Below, piece after piece: positions 5,354 through 12,564 of a stretch of DNA of 64,000 nucleotides. Source of the stretch: Rhodospirillales bacterium BBD 1991-14. Lineage in GTDB: Bacteria; Pseudomonadota; Alphaproteobacteria; Kiloniellales; Kiloniellaceae. The stretch is from positions 310,001-374,000 of the forward strand of contig LYSY01000004.1 of the NCBI GenBank assembly GCA_001657395.1. Direction: 5' to 3'. Numbering within the stretch: position 1 is the stretch's first letter; the number at the start of each line of letters is the position of its first letter. A model generated the notes under the pieces. It saw only the letters and a list, made by a program, of their open reading frames with translations, had not been told where the DNA came from and did no database searches. The position numbers were made by a program, and so were the translations under genes.

Positions 5354-6465
5354 ACCGCGCTCTCCGGCGCTGCGGTGTAAACGTCGCGGGTGAGCGCGGC
5401 CGGGTCCGGATCGGGGCTTTCCTTGGCGAAGGCGATGGCGGCGGCGATTTGCTCGGCGACCTCGGTCTCCATCCGGGCGAAACCGTCTTCGCTGAGGATG
5501 CCGTGCTCGCTCAGCAGGCCGGCGAAGCGGCGGATCGGGTCACGGGCGATCCAGGCTTCGATCTCGTCCTTGCTGCGGTAGCGGTTGCGGTCGGACTTTG
5601 AGTGCCCGCGCCAGCGGTAGGTGACCGACTCGATCAGACTGGGCCCTTCGCCGGCGCGCGCCCGTTCGATGGCCGCATGGCAGGCCTCGGCAACGGCGGA
5701 GAGATCGTTGCCGTCCACGGTCACGCCCGGCATGGAATAGGCTGCGGCCCGGTCGGAAACCTGTCGCACCGCGGTCGAGCGCTCGACCGAGGTGGACATG
5801 CCGTAGTGATTGTTCTCGCAGATGAAGATCACCGGCAGTTTCCAGATCGCCGCCATGTTGAGGGACTCGTGAAAGGACCCTTCGTTCACCGCGCCGTCGC
5901 CGAAGAAGCTGGTGACCACCGTTCCCGTCTTCAGCCGCTTGGCCGAGAGGGCGGCGCCGACGGCAATGGGGATGCCGCCGCCGACGATACCGTTGGCACC
6001 GAGGTTGCCCTTGTCGACGTCGGCGATGTGCATGGAGCCGCCGCGCCCGCGGCAGTAGCCGCTTTCCTTGCCGAAGAACTCGGCAAACATGCGCCCGACA
6101 TCGGCCCCTTTGGCGATGCAGTGCCCGTGGCCGCGGTGGGTCGAGGTGATCTTGTCCTGATCGGTGAGCTCCAGGCAGGCGCCGACGGCGCTCGCCTCCT
6201 GGCCGATGGAGAGATGCATCGTGCCGTGGATCAGGCCGCGTGTGTAGCTGTCTTCGGCGCCTTCCTCGAAGCGGCGGATGAGCAGCATCTTGCGCAGGGC
6301 CTCGCGCAGCACCTCCGCTTTGTAGTGGCGGATCGCAAAGGGTACATTCCCGGCAACGGCCTTGTCGGCGCGCCGGCTTGCCGGGCGGGCGGTGCCGCCG
6401 CTGCCCTTCCGGCTTGCGGACGGCGCCTGCGCGCCGCAGCGTTCAGCTTCCGAAGAGATGCTCAT
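5350..6465 (-). CDS. TPP-dependent ketol dehydrogenase E1 alpha subunit (AcoA-like)
   Basis: This 371-residue protein carries the thiamine-diphosphate/metal motif GDGAVNEG followed by the conserved [10 protein letters not shown] and the RWRGHSKSD active-site loop. These are diagnostic of E1alpha of acetoin/pyruvate-type dehydrogenases. An N-terminal low-complexity segment of about 45 residues precedes the fold, so a slightly later start is possible; GAGGG lies about 9 nt upstream of the ATG at 6465. The gene overlaps the end of the DRL-like gene by 23 bases and the start of E1beta by 4 bases, so the four genes form one operon. It supplies the cofactor-binding half of the E1 heterotetramer. 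Confidence 0.9.
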
Positions 6466-7786
6466 CTTGTTTGGCCCTCAGTGCGGCGATTTTGGAGCCC
6501 TCGGGCGTGGCGGTGTTGTCGTAGGTGATGAGCGCGCCCTTGGGGATGGGTTGCGTGACCCGGCTGTCGGTCAGCAGGCCGCAGGGAATGGCCCGCTCGG
6601 CGCGGGCTTCCTCGGCCCGCATGATCCAGGCGCGGTAGCAGTACTCGCCGATGGCATCCAGGGTCTCGCCGGGCGCCAGATCGCGCTTGGCGACCGCGCA
6701 GACCTCCGCCACCGGCCGGTCCAGCGGCACCATGTCCGCCTTGCCGTAGAGCACGGCGCGCGCGCAGGTCAGCGGAACTTCCAGCGAGGTCAGGTGATAG
6801 GGACGGATGAAGGTGAAGTAGGGGCCGTCCCCCAGCTTCAGGTCGGTCATGCGCTCCGACACCCGCGGGTGGGACATCTCGGCGACCACGAAGACGCCGG
6901 GGGCGACGCCGGCGCCGACGGAATAGTCGACCCGGCCGACGTCCGAAAGGACGCCGCCGTCCTTTTCCGGTACCAGGACCTTGGAGAGGTCCTCCTTCGT
7001 CGCCCGCGGCCCGTGCAGTCCGGGCTTGTCGGGGACCAGGCCGGTGGCATTGGCGATGGCCGCCATCTCGACCATGGTCTTCGAGCCGTCGATGAACTCC
7101 ACCAGCATCCGCGGGCTCATGTTGCGGCGCTCGGCCTCTTCGACGTACTCGTCCGGCGTCGCATCGATGTTCAGCGGATTGTTCTTGCCCTTGCCGGCGC
7201 AGACGATGGGGTGGCCCATGGCGGCCACAAACTCGATCAGTTCCATGCAGGACGAGGGCTCGTCGCCTGCCCCCAGGGTGTAGACCACGCCCAGCCGGTC
7301 GGCCTGCGCCTTCAGGTAGGCGCCGATGGTGACGTCGGCCTCGACGTTCATCATCACCAGATGCTTGCCCCGCTCCATGGCCGCCAGTCCGATCTCGGCA
7401 CCCACGGCCGGCACGCCCGTCGCGTCGATGACCACGTCGATGAGCCCGCTTTCGAGAAGCTTGCCGGCGTCGTCCGTCACGGCGATGGCGCCGTCTTCCA
7501 TGGTGGCGTTGAGATCGTCCTGGGAGGAGACCTCCTTGGCCCGGCCATCGCCGTCGAAGGCGCTGTTGGAAGCGCCACTGGAAGCGATCGCGACCGCCTT
7601 CAGCGCAGCGGGCACGTCCAGCTCGGCGATGGCACCGATGCGGATGCCGGGCATGTGGGCGACCCGGGTCACGATGTCGGTGCCCATCTCCCCTGAGCCG
7701 ACAAGCCCGATACGCACGGGCCGGCCGGCCTCGGCGCGCGCTGCCAGGTCCTTGGCCAGGCCGGTCAAAGCGACATTGGTGGGCAA
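6443..7786 (-). CDS. DRL-like / homoserine-dehydrogenase-like NAD(P)-dependent oxidoreductase with SAF domain
   Basis: This 447-residue cytoplasmic enzyme has an N-terminal Rossmann motif GLVGSGEMG (residues 28-36), the middle-domain motifs [10 protein letters not shown] and VMMNVEADV, and a C-terminal SAF-like segment (about 350-425). This layout matches the family first annotated as predicted homoserine dehydrogenase. That family includes Brucella DRL, a DXR-like enzyme that can make 2-C-methylerythritol 4-phosphate. Most members sit in sugar or polyol clusters and have no known role. Here it is the first gene of an operon with a TPP-dependent E1/E2 complex, divergent from a sugar importer. 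A catabolic redox or isomerisation step is therefore more likely than isoprenoid synthesis; that is inference. Confidence 0.8.
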
Positions 7787-8145
7787 GGGCGGTTCTCCTT
7801 CAAATCGCTCGCATTCTCAGTGTAGTGAACATGTGTTCTATGGTCAATACGCATGTTCTAACGTATACTGCCGACCGCAGCCACAAAGCCCTTGACATCT
7901 CGCGAACTGGCTTGAACATTTGGTTGATAAAGAATAACATTGTTCAAAAGCGGGTGGGGGAGGAAAAGAACGCCGTGGTCTCTGTACCTTCCCGAAAAGC
8001 ACCCTGACCTGTCTCTCGCGCTGCGCTGGCGCGCGATTACCCGGCCGGGCGGATCGCCTGCCGGGTCCGCCCAAGGCTAGGGACCGGCTGGCCGGTTCTT
8101 GAGGGTTGGGCGGGGACAAGAACGAACACAAGGGAGGAAACAGCG
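7787..8145. promoter_or_regulatory. Divergent promoter region with a cluster of GAACA/TGTTC half-sites
   Basis: This 359-base AT-richer region separates the DRL-like operon (minus) from the importer operon (plus). It contains an interrupted inverted repeat GAACATGTGTTC (7827-7838), a direct repeat of TGTTCTA (7834-7840 and 7854-7860) and a wider inverted pair TTGAACA (7912-7918) / TTGTTCAA (7940-7947). A TTGACA at 7892-7897 with AACATT 17 bases later is a plausible sigma-70 promoter for the plus-strand operon, and the 7912 half-site overlaps its -10. The pattern fits operator sites for the SorC regulator at 1927-2916. A good ribosome binding site, AGGGAGGAAACAGCG, precedes the ATG at 8146. 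Confidence 0.6.
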
Positions 8146-11511: not shown

Positions 11512-11514
11512 GCC

Positions 11515-12564
11515 GTGGCTGAGATCGAACTGCGCAACATCTCCAAGAAATGGGGCCACTTCGTCGGGGTCAAGGATGTGAACCTGACCATCTCCGATGA
11601 GGAGTTCGTCGTCTTTCTGGGCCCTTCAGGCTGCGGCAAGACCACCACCATGCGCATGATCGCCGGGCTGGAGGACCCCAGCGGCGGCGAGGTGGTGATC
11701 GACGGAGAGGTGGTGAACGAAGTCGATGCCCGCGACCGCGACGTGGCGATGGTGTTCCAGAGCTACGCGCTCTATCCCAACATGACGATCTACGAGAACA
11801 TTCGCTTTCCCCTGCGCATGCGTGGGGTGCCAAAGGATCAGCATGCCGCGTTGGTGAAGCGGGCGGCGGAGATGGTGGAACTGGGCGACTATCTCGAGCG
11901 CAAGCCGGGGGCGCTCTCCGGCGGACAGCGCCAGCGCGCCGCGCTGGCCCGCGCGGTCGTGCGCCAGCCCCATGTCTTCCTGATGGACGAGCCGCTGTCG
12001 AACCTGGACGCCAAGCTGCGCACCGCCATGCGCGTCCAGCTGAAACACCTGCAGCGTCAACTGAAGATCACCACGGTCTACGTGACCCACGATCAGGTCG
12101 AGGCCATGACCCTGGCGGACCGCATCGTCATCATGAACGGCGGCGAGATCCAGCAGATCGGCACCCCGCACGAGATCTATGGCGATCCCGCCAACACCTT
12201 CGTCGCCGGCTTCATCGGCTCCCCGCCGATGAATCTGATCGCCGGGCACCTGGAGGGCGGAGTTTTCACCGCCGCAGGCCTCCGCGTCGAGGGCCTTGTC
12301 CTGGACGGCAGCCGCGAAGCCGTTCTCGGCGTTCGTCCGGAGGATTGCCACGTCAACGGCGCCGCCGGCCACCTGACCGGCAGGATTTTCGGGATCGAGC
12401 CTACGGGCGACCAGACCTTCGTCAGCCTGCGCAGCGACGAAGCCCTCATCGAAATCAGAGCCGACCGCGATTTCCGGGCTCCGCTGGACAGTACGGCCCA
12501 GATCAGCTTTGATCTCGACCGCCTTTACTTCTTCGACGCCGCGTCGGGCGAGCGGCTTCGGTGA
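11515..12564 (+). CDS. Carbohydrate ABC transporter ATP-binding protein, MalK/UgpC type
   Basis: This 349-residue MalK-type ATPase starts with GTG three bases after the permease stop. It has all canonical motifs: Walker A GPSGCGKTT, Q-loop VFQSYALYPNMT, signature LSGGQRQR, Walker B FLMDEPLSNLD and H-loop VTHDQVEAMTL. A C-terminal TOBE/OB regulatory domain (about residues 240-345) follows. It presumably works as a homodimer, unlike the two-ATPase importer further along in this window. It is co-transcribed with the binding protein and permeases upstream and the PfkB kinase downstream. Confidence 0.93.
   Translation: MAEIELRNISKKWGHFVGVKDVNLTISDEEFVVFLGPSGCGKTTTMRMIAGLEDPSGGEVVIDGEVVNEVDARDRDVAMVFQSYALYPNMTIYENIRFPLRMRGVPKDQHAALVKRAAEMVELGDYLERKPGALSGGQRQRAALARAVVRQPHVFLMDEPLSNLDAKLRTAMRVQLKHLQRQLKITTVYVTHDQVEAMTLADRIVIMNGGEIQQIGTPHEIYGDPANTFVAGFIGSPPMNLIAGHLEGGVFTAAGLRVEGLVLDGSREAVLGVRPEDCHVNGAAGHLTGRIFGIEPTGDQTFVSLRSDEALIEIRADRDFRAPLDSTAQISFDLDRLYFFDAASGERLR

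Follow-up and report, generated by a model that had tools for sequence, protein, structure and literature searches.

A divergent gene cluster centred on DRL

We analysed a window of 64,000 nt from the 5.5 Mb genome of Rhodospirillales bacterium BBD 1991-14 (contig LYSY01000004.1, GCA_001657395.1, positions 310,001–374,000); coordinates below are those of the window. It contains a gene cluster for what is probably a new catabolic pathway assembled from known enzyme families. The cluster spans about 1927–14953 and consists of two divergent units (Table 1). The minus-strand unit, read from 7786 down to 1927, encodes a DRL-type reductoisomerase, the E1α and E1β subunits of a thiamine pyrophosphate (TPP)-dependent dehydrogenase, an AcoC-type E2 and a SorC regulator. 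The plus-strand unit, from 8146 to 14953, encodes a CUT1 carbohydrate importer of the ATP-binding cassette (ABC) class, complete by profile searches (solute-binding protein, SBP; two permeases; MalK/UgpC-type ATPase), followed by a PfkB kinase and two proteins without known family. The divergent arrangement of these genes had been described in an earlier sequence-only reading, and is confirmed by open reading frames (ORFs) and profile searches. The range given there, 6443–12564, covers DRL to the ATPase but falls short of the actual unit, which includes the two proteins without family.

Table 1. Features of the cluster, in window coordinates.
Feature	Position	Strand	Basis or remark
SorC-family regulator	1927–2916	minus	Pfam Sugar-bind, 172.5 bits
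E2, AcoC type	2998–4332	minus	lipoyl domain (ETDKA), E3-binding domain and alpha/beta-hydrolase-type domain (GHSLG)
E1β, TPP-dependent dehydrogenase	4334–5353	minus	family profile match
E1α, TPP-dependent dehydrogenase	5350–6465	minus	family profile match; GDG...NN, which we take to be the TPP motif
DRL = DXR-II, 1-deoxy-D-xylulose 5-phosphate reductoisomerase type II	6443–7786	minus	Pfam DRL_cat, 223.8 bits
Operator-like inverted repeat GAAC-N24-GTTC, nearer DRL start	7827–7858		
Operator-like inverted repeat GAAC-N24-GTTC, nearer importer start	7914–7945		
CUT1-type SBP	8146–9711	plus	twin-arginine-like signal judged by eye
ABC permease 1	9743–10672	plus	family match
ABC permease 2	10651–11511	plus	mechanical ORF begins at 10003, same frame
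ABC ATPase, UgpC/MalK type	11515–12564	plus	family match
PfkB-family kinase, proposed 2-C-methyl-D-erythritol kinase	12578–13537	plus	no NCBIfam model above cut-off
Protein, family not recognised, conserved after PfkB	13600–14337	plus	
Protein, family not recognised	14345–14953	plus	WPEGY and LRTWWSF.EN motifs

The DRL of the window is of the DXR-II type

The identity of the DRL and its linkage to E1/E2 genes are both well supported by sequence comparison. The sequence-only reading had proposed a DRL-like enzyme of the sugar-phosphate type, and this can be refined to a 1-deoxy-D-xylulose 5-phosphate (DXP) reductoisomerase of type II, because residues 1–443 of the window DRL align, full length, to residues 1–435 of PDB 3upl with 639 bits. 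Ten substrate-binding, dimer or divergence positions named in the accessible text of PMC3847144, mapped through an offset of 8 in the 3upl alignment, are all kept in the window DRL (G121, E174, F178, K191, K193, T229, H250, R320, Y322 and V351), and K191, K193, T229 and R320 are conserved in 83/83 sequences of the linked DRL set. In a quick tree of 83 rows, which remained of 126 after same-label sequences were collapsed at 95% identity, the window DRL lies inside a 57-row clade (SH-aLRT 99) that also holds the Brucella/Ochrobactrum-type second DRLs, one of which matches 3upl at 891 bits over 435 aa. It thus groups with functional DXR-II, apart from the DLO relatives (support 99). Functional DXR-II paralogues are reported in the accessible part of PMC3847144.

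Stand-alone DRLs of Phyllobacterium and Aminobacter, whose genomes lack the canonical reductoisomerase DXR-I, nest among the E1/E2-linked DRLs (the searched genomes did not include that of locus L090). Earlier work on the DXR-II/DRL family is reportedly that of Sangari in 2010. Because the stand-alone DRLs nest in this way, the chemistry of the E1/E2-linked DRLs is very probably the interconversion of DXP and 2-C-methyl-D-erythritol 4-phosphate (MEP); the accessible text of a 2026 review gives the Dxr reaction as reversible (PMC13001223).

Window-type DRLs are patchily distributed, since they were found in 5/8 genomes of the genus (host included) and, at ≥50% identity, in only 4/385 genomes of the class. 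DRL-family matches at E ≤ 1e-20 occur in 94/385 class genomes; most are thus of the uncharacterised kind represented in the host by L141 (G000:C9:219267-220580), a remote DRL-like paralogue (38%) whose place in the tree is among the DLO-type rows. Another 38% DRL-like gene, L133 on a Deinococcus ficus plasmid, lies within a sugar-nucleotide cluster (cytidylyltransferase, short-chain dehydrogenase/reductase, epimerase), a context hinting that the DRL superfamily may also build branched sugars.

DRL genes are linked to a distinct E1/E2 complex

Loci were compared for the best 80 of 569 DRL relatives (71–77% identity), among which the nearest named ones are mostly Alphaproteobacteria; more distant DRLs came from plasmid records and a few other genomes. 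L165, a duplicate of L098, was removed, and L158 lies at a contig edge. E1α lies ≤1.5 kb downstream of DRL in 69/80 loci, and by coordinates the two genes abut in 32/38 alphaproteobacterial plasmid records, the exceptions being five Phyllobacterium records and one of Pararhizobium, which is not among the 60 of 72 matches listed. With one Bacillota plasmid in addition, the co-occurrence across genomes that the sequence-only reading had proposed to look for is thus conserved. In four genus mates the whole order is kept, SorC-E2-E1β-E1α-DRL on one side and SBP-permeases-ATPase-PfkB-unknown on the other.

The window E1α shares 62–79% identity with the 27 other alphaproteobacterial DRL-linked E1α sequences compared, 54% with an Enterococcus acetoin-type E1 encoded beside a butanediol dehydrogenase, and 42–44% with two other complexes of the host (42% for pyruvate dehydrogenase, PDH). 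E1β is 74–86% identical to 26 alphaproteobacterial DRL-linked homologues and 69% identical to that beside the second Bosea DRL. In quick trees with few references and long branches, the 28 alphaproteobacterial DRL-linked E1α and E1β sequences each form one clade (97 and 99), apart from the PDH of the host and from acetoin-type E1. The host's other complexes comprise a PDH, with an E3-type gene beside it, and, on contig C11, an AcoABC-like locus; the E1 from C11 falls with the acetoin-type one of Enterococcus (97, 99), and the window E1 with the DRL-linked ones. Because E1α and E1β give different nearest relatives, we regard the DRL-linked complex, as far as sequence can tell, as a separate branch of the PDH/acetoin group. 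The window complex is distinct from the host AcoABC-like locus, in line with the earlier expectation that it is no ordinary acetoin dehydrogenase.

The window E2 scores 379.8 bits against a cut-off of 307 for the NCBIfam acetoin E2 model NF011457. Among the 69 linked loci, E2 is AcoC-like in 28 and a canonical acyltransferase in 39, with two of undetermined type. As the sequence-only reading had noted, there is no E3 gene in the locus; one of E3 type lies beside the PDH genes of the host, and in Sinorhizobium and Agrobacterium loci E3 (lpdA) and lipA come after E2. In Agrobacterium CFBP7129, the importer, kinase, DRL, E1, E2, E3 and lipA genes stand in one same-strand row, and plasmid pRM41A of Sinorhizobium meliloti Rm41 also bears the complete set.

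Two further records have related genes. On a Clostridioides difficile plasmid (L171), E1α/E1β/E2/E3 genes lie behind SorC and beside phosphotransferase system (PTS) IIA/IIB/IIC genes; the annotation of this 19-kb stretch shows no DRL. The other record, NZ_CP129381.1 (Rhizobium sp. SSA_523), contains a 71% E1α, but no DRL match was listed for it at E ≤ 1e-60.

The linked DRL is often spare for isoprenoid synthesis

In the host genome the DRL is spare for isoprenoid synthesis, because canonical DXR-I (477.8 bits) and DXS are also present. Of the 79 searchable genomes in the best-80 set, 69 have an E1/E2-linked DRL and 10 a stand-alone DRL. A backup reductoisomerase was found in 60/69 linked genomes, being DXR-I in 26 and otherwise a second DRL in 34. 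The stand-alone genomes had DXR-I in 0/10 and a second DRL in 2/10, that copy being E1/E2-linked. The difference is significant for any backup (Fisher p 3e-5) and for DXR-I alone (0.026), both values being uncorrected for relatedness. DXS was found in 48/50 genomes, including the host.

A second DRL exists in addition to the E1/E2-linked copy in 6/6 Brucella/Ochrobactrum genomes (G441–G446) and for 22/23 loci named Mesorhizobium. Where the flanking sequence of a second copy was long enough (21 cases, not including the copy on contig C13 of G428), 16 were without an adjacent E1α and five had one. In G409, the E1/E2-linked second DRL has one in-frame stop.

Uptake and phosphorylation modules are interchangeable, and cleavage modules possibly so

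The genes for import and phosphorylation around DRL are interchangeable. Of the 69 linked loci, 11 had the CUT1 importer together with PfkB, eight had PfkB but not this importer, and the remainder of those with a module had PTS genes: glucitol alone in 12, glucitol plus galactitol in seven, glucitol plus PfkB in three and galactitol alone in one. PfkB was also seen combined with other transporters. No PfkB/PTS module was seen in 27/69, of which 16 had <9 kb on one side; where >9 kb was available on both sides, 37/48 had one. The 11 stand-alone loci showed no import/phosphorylation module and no window-type SorC. The glucitol/galactitol PTS modules suggest that the substrate is a polyol.

More distant DRLs have other partners. 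A Priestia aryabhattai plasmid (Bacillota) carries E1α, E1β, E2, E3, two SorC genes, a major facilitator superfamily (MFS) transporter, DRL and an FGGY kinase; its E1 does not lie firmly within the alphaproteobacterial E1 clade. In Listeria innocua, DRL occurs with a glucitol PTS and SorC, and in Ligilactobacillus salivarius with a glucitol PTS, SorC, fructose-6-phosphate aldolase (FSA) and transketolase. Enterococcus raffinosus has DRL with GutM, glucitol EIIBC, two SorC genes and, upstream and divergent, a phosphoketolase. Near the DRL cluster of L055, L076, L084, L131 and L174, genes for a GlpD-like FAD enzyme, a zinc alcohol dehydrogenase and ribose-type ABC proteins recur, perhaps for a stereoisomer of the substrate.

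Shared operator-like repeats and conserved proteins

A SorC protein at least 45% identical to that of the window is encoded in 33/69 E1/E2-linked loci and 0/11 stand-alone loci. The 359-base divergent intergenic region carries two GAAC-N24-GTTC repeats, and pairs of the form GAAC-N16..28-GTTC were found in 11/13 equivalent regions, four of the 13 being from genus mates (L067 and L122 were without); 500 shuffled sets of the 13 regions gave a mean of 0.9 and a maximum of five. The 64-kb window contains two copies of the sequence TGAACATNTG, both of them in the divergent region, against an expectation of 0.24, and 2/100 shuffles reached two copies. These repeats are presumably the operator of SorC, for which we regard them as candidates.

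The product of 13600–14337 is 69–74% identical in three genus mates and 99% in a fourth; it had no Pfam match at E ≤ 1e-5 (best E 0.09) and no NCBIfam match at 0.1. That of 14345–14953, for which no Pfam or NCBIfam family was found, is encoded in 34/69 linked loci, of both ABC and PTS type, and 0/11 stand-alone loci. Its predicted structure (pLDDT 87.5) gave no PDB match at E ≤ 0.001 and 55 at E ≤ 10; a Doc-like match was weak and was not taken as evidence.

On one side of the cluster, a ThiY-like gene at 575–1609 was dropped as a member, being present in 1/4 genus-mate stretches fetched. On the other, 14950–27174 holds a second polyol-like cluster, with a class II aldolase, a GlpD-like FAD enzyme, a 2-hydroxyacid dehydrogenase and an FGGY kinase, together with ABC importer genes and a further regulator of SorC type.

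A proposed route for methylerythritol catabolism

We think it likely that the cluster catabolises 2-C-methyl-D-erythritol (ME) through a reverse DRL step and cleavage of DXP. The ABC importer would take up ME and the PfkB kinase would phosphorylate it to MEP, which DRL, working in reverse, would oxidize (MEP + NADP+ → DXP + NADPH). The known polyol phosphate of DXR-II is MEP, and the product of its reverse reaction, DXP, has the form CH3-CO-CHOH-R, the class cleaved by acetoin-type E1/E2. The complex, with a borrowed E3, would treat DXP as a phosphorylated acetoin analogue and cut it between C2 and C3 (DXP + CoA + NAD+ → acetyl-CoA + glyceraldehyde 3-phosphate + NADH), so that all five carbons of ME would reach central metabolism and the oxidative cleavage would pull the reversible DRL step. 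The SorC regulator, probably sensing a phosphorylated intermediate, would govern both divergent units. In other loci, a glucitol/galactitol-type PTS would deliver the phosphorylated polyol directly, and ABC plus PfkB or MFS plus FGGY would do so in two steps.

The sequence-only reading had proposed that an imported carbohydrate becomes an α-hydroxyketone, which the TPP complex cleaves to an acyl-CoA and an aldehyde. The comparative evidence favours this scheme, given the conserved linkage and the distinctness of the complex from the AcoABC-like one; we infer that the hydroxyketone is DXP and the entry polyol ME. The co-occurring partner enzymes, taken with known chemistry, would converge on DXP, because this skeleton is of the class that acetoin-type E1/E2 cleave, PDH can make it, and reverse FSA would cleave it. 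According to the accessible text of PMC8791446, FSA condenses glycolaldehyde and hydroxyacetone to 1-deoxyxylulose, and the reverse reaction would therefore also cleave it; purified PDH forms 1-deoxyxylulose from pyruvate and glyceraldehyde (PMC3424233, accessible text).

Alternative explanations

Several observations count against ME catabolism as outlined here. The DRL tree requires at least 12 changes in the linkage between DRL and E1/E2, and in Listeria innocua E1/E2 genes are not near DRL. Neither DXR-I nor a second DRL was seen in 9/69 linked genomes, so that, unless these assemblies have gaps, DRL must there serve synthesis too. Of the 48 linked loci with >9 kb on both sides, 11 showed neither PfkB nor PTS genes. 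The substrate specificities are not readable for the SBP, which is 74–77% identical to six aligned orthologues, whose structure model from seven orthologues reached pLDDT 36 and whose sequence matches in PDB were weak (best 5iai, E 9e-14), nor, by sequence, for the PfkB kinase, whose best PDB relatives are diverse ribokinase-family enzymes. The normal substrate of phosphoketolase is xylulose 5-phosphate, and the Enterococcus partner could hint at another ketose phosphate. The E1 signals point both ways, since E1α is closer to an acetoin-type E1 (54%) than to the host PDH (42%), whereas E1β and the E1α score lean towards PDH: E1β is closer to the host's own PDH (54%) than to acetoin-type E1β (44–45%; Enterococcus 44%), falls on the PDH side of the tree and passes the NCBIfam PDH E1β subfamily cut-off (399.2 against 321), and E1α, at 390.2, is 3.7 bits short of the cut-off of 393.85 for the PDH E1α model TIGR03182.

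The E1β results would suit a complex devoted to oxidizing pyruvate (or another 2-oxoacid) at the end of a pyruvate-making pathway, as would the canonical acyltransferase E2 of 39/69 linked loci. We judge this very unlikely, as the host already has a PDH, the unit contains no pyruvate-making aldolase, and DRL abuts E1. An ordinary acetoin dehydrogenase operon beside unrelated genes could claim the E2 score above the acetoin cut-off and the E1α identity to the Enterococcus enzyme. It is scarcely credible and was dropped given the E1 grouping and the separate AcoABC-like locus of the host, and the linkage to DRL persists whichever type of E2 is present. The phosphoketolase of Enterococcus raffinosus and the transketolase of Ligilactobacillus would fit xylulose 5-phosphate, as expected if the linked DRL has shifted to another branched polyol phosphate (e.g. 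2-C-hydroxymethyl-tetritol phosphate) and yields a ketose phosphate other than DXP. Such a shift seems unlikely to us when the four DXR-II residues are kept throughout the linked set and DRLs from DXR-I-less genomes nest within it; a ketopentose phosphate, moreover, would need no E1/E2 complex.

The imported sugar might instead be 1-deoxy-D-xylulose, alone or with ME, with the kinase making DXP directly and DRL serving as a side entry. The xylB kinase of E. coli does phosphorylate 1-deoxyxylulose (accessible text of PMC3424233), and an FGGY kinase adjoins DRL in Priestia. DRL heads the E1 gene run in 69/80 loci, though, which would be pointless if DXP were formed directly, and the PTS modules suggest a polyol; we consider this distinctly unlikely. 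Finally, a biosynthetic cluster, in which DRL would act as an additional isoprenoid enzyme and E1 would take over the formation of DXP from DXS, could draw on PDH variants able to make DXP (PMC3424233, accessible text). It is highly improbable, since the host has DXR-I, and a biosynthetic cluster would have no use for the importer, kinase or SorC control; a replacement of DXS by E1 was dropped because DXS is so widely present.

Wider meaning and comparison with known systems

ME catabolism predicts a new activity, that of a DXP dehydrogenase complex, as well as an ME kinase and a microbial sink for ME. ME is known from plants. The pathway is perhaps also a sink for 2-methyltetrols, which trace isoprene aerosol (PMC5559486, accessible text). 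In the open-access literature searched (subscription papers and preprints being outside this scope) we found no ME catabolism, DXP dehydrogenase complex or catabolic role of DXR-II, nor any described pathway with this set of genes, of which the sequence-only reading had known none either.

The accessible text of PMC3847144 leaves open why DXR-II occurs alongside DXR-I, why it occurs in Chloroflexi presumably using the mevalonate pathway only, and why in Finegoldia and Anaerococcus, in which neither pathway was found; within its main text, as far as accessible, the strings ‘catabol’ and ‘acetoin’ are absent and the redundancy is treated without a catabolic role. Such a role, if true, would directly explain all these occurrences, account for a seemingly redundant second form of the reductoisomerase in many bacteria and so settle the puzzle; a DXR-II gene by itself would then be no proof of an alternative isoprenoid route. 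A small number of strains and assays would be enough to test this. In a wider reading, which we consider somewhat less likely than not, DXR-II would over much of its range, and perhaps originally, be no isoprenoid enzyme but central to a widespread ME catabolism in Proteobacteria and Firmicutes, with interchangeable modules for uptake (ABC plus PfkB, MFS plus FGGY, glucitol/galactitol PTS) and for DXP cleavage (FSA aldolase, phosphoketolase or a dedicated DXP dehydrogenase complex). Biosynthesis in DXR-I-less lineages would then be a function for which it was recruited later.

Erythritol-type polyol operons comprise a SorC regulator, a transporter, a kinase and a dehydrogenase. The window cluster would have in common with them polyol import, phosphorylation, oxidation and SorC-type control, but here a reductoisomerase would perform the oxidation while rearranging a branched skeleton, and its product would then be cleaved oxidatively to give acetyl-CoA. 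With the AcoABC acetoin dehydrogenase it shares TPP-dependent E1α/β subunits, an AcoC-type E2 and the proposed chemistry on a methyl α-hydroxyketone, whereas the E1 clade is separate, SorC is the regulator, the genes are linked to DRL, kinase and importer, and the proposed substrate, DXP, would yield glyceraldehyde 3-phosphate where AcoABC yields acetaldehyde. The window DRL belongs to the same family as known DXR-II/DRL enzymes (Carretero-Paulet 2013, PMC3847144; PDB 3upl), has the same diagnostic residues and shares its clade with a DRL nearly identical to the crystallised one. Those enzymes are described, in the accessible text of that paper, as an isoprenoid biosynthetic alternative, whereas that of the window is part of a probably catabolic cluster in a DXR-I-bearing genome, where we propose that flux runs in reverse.

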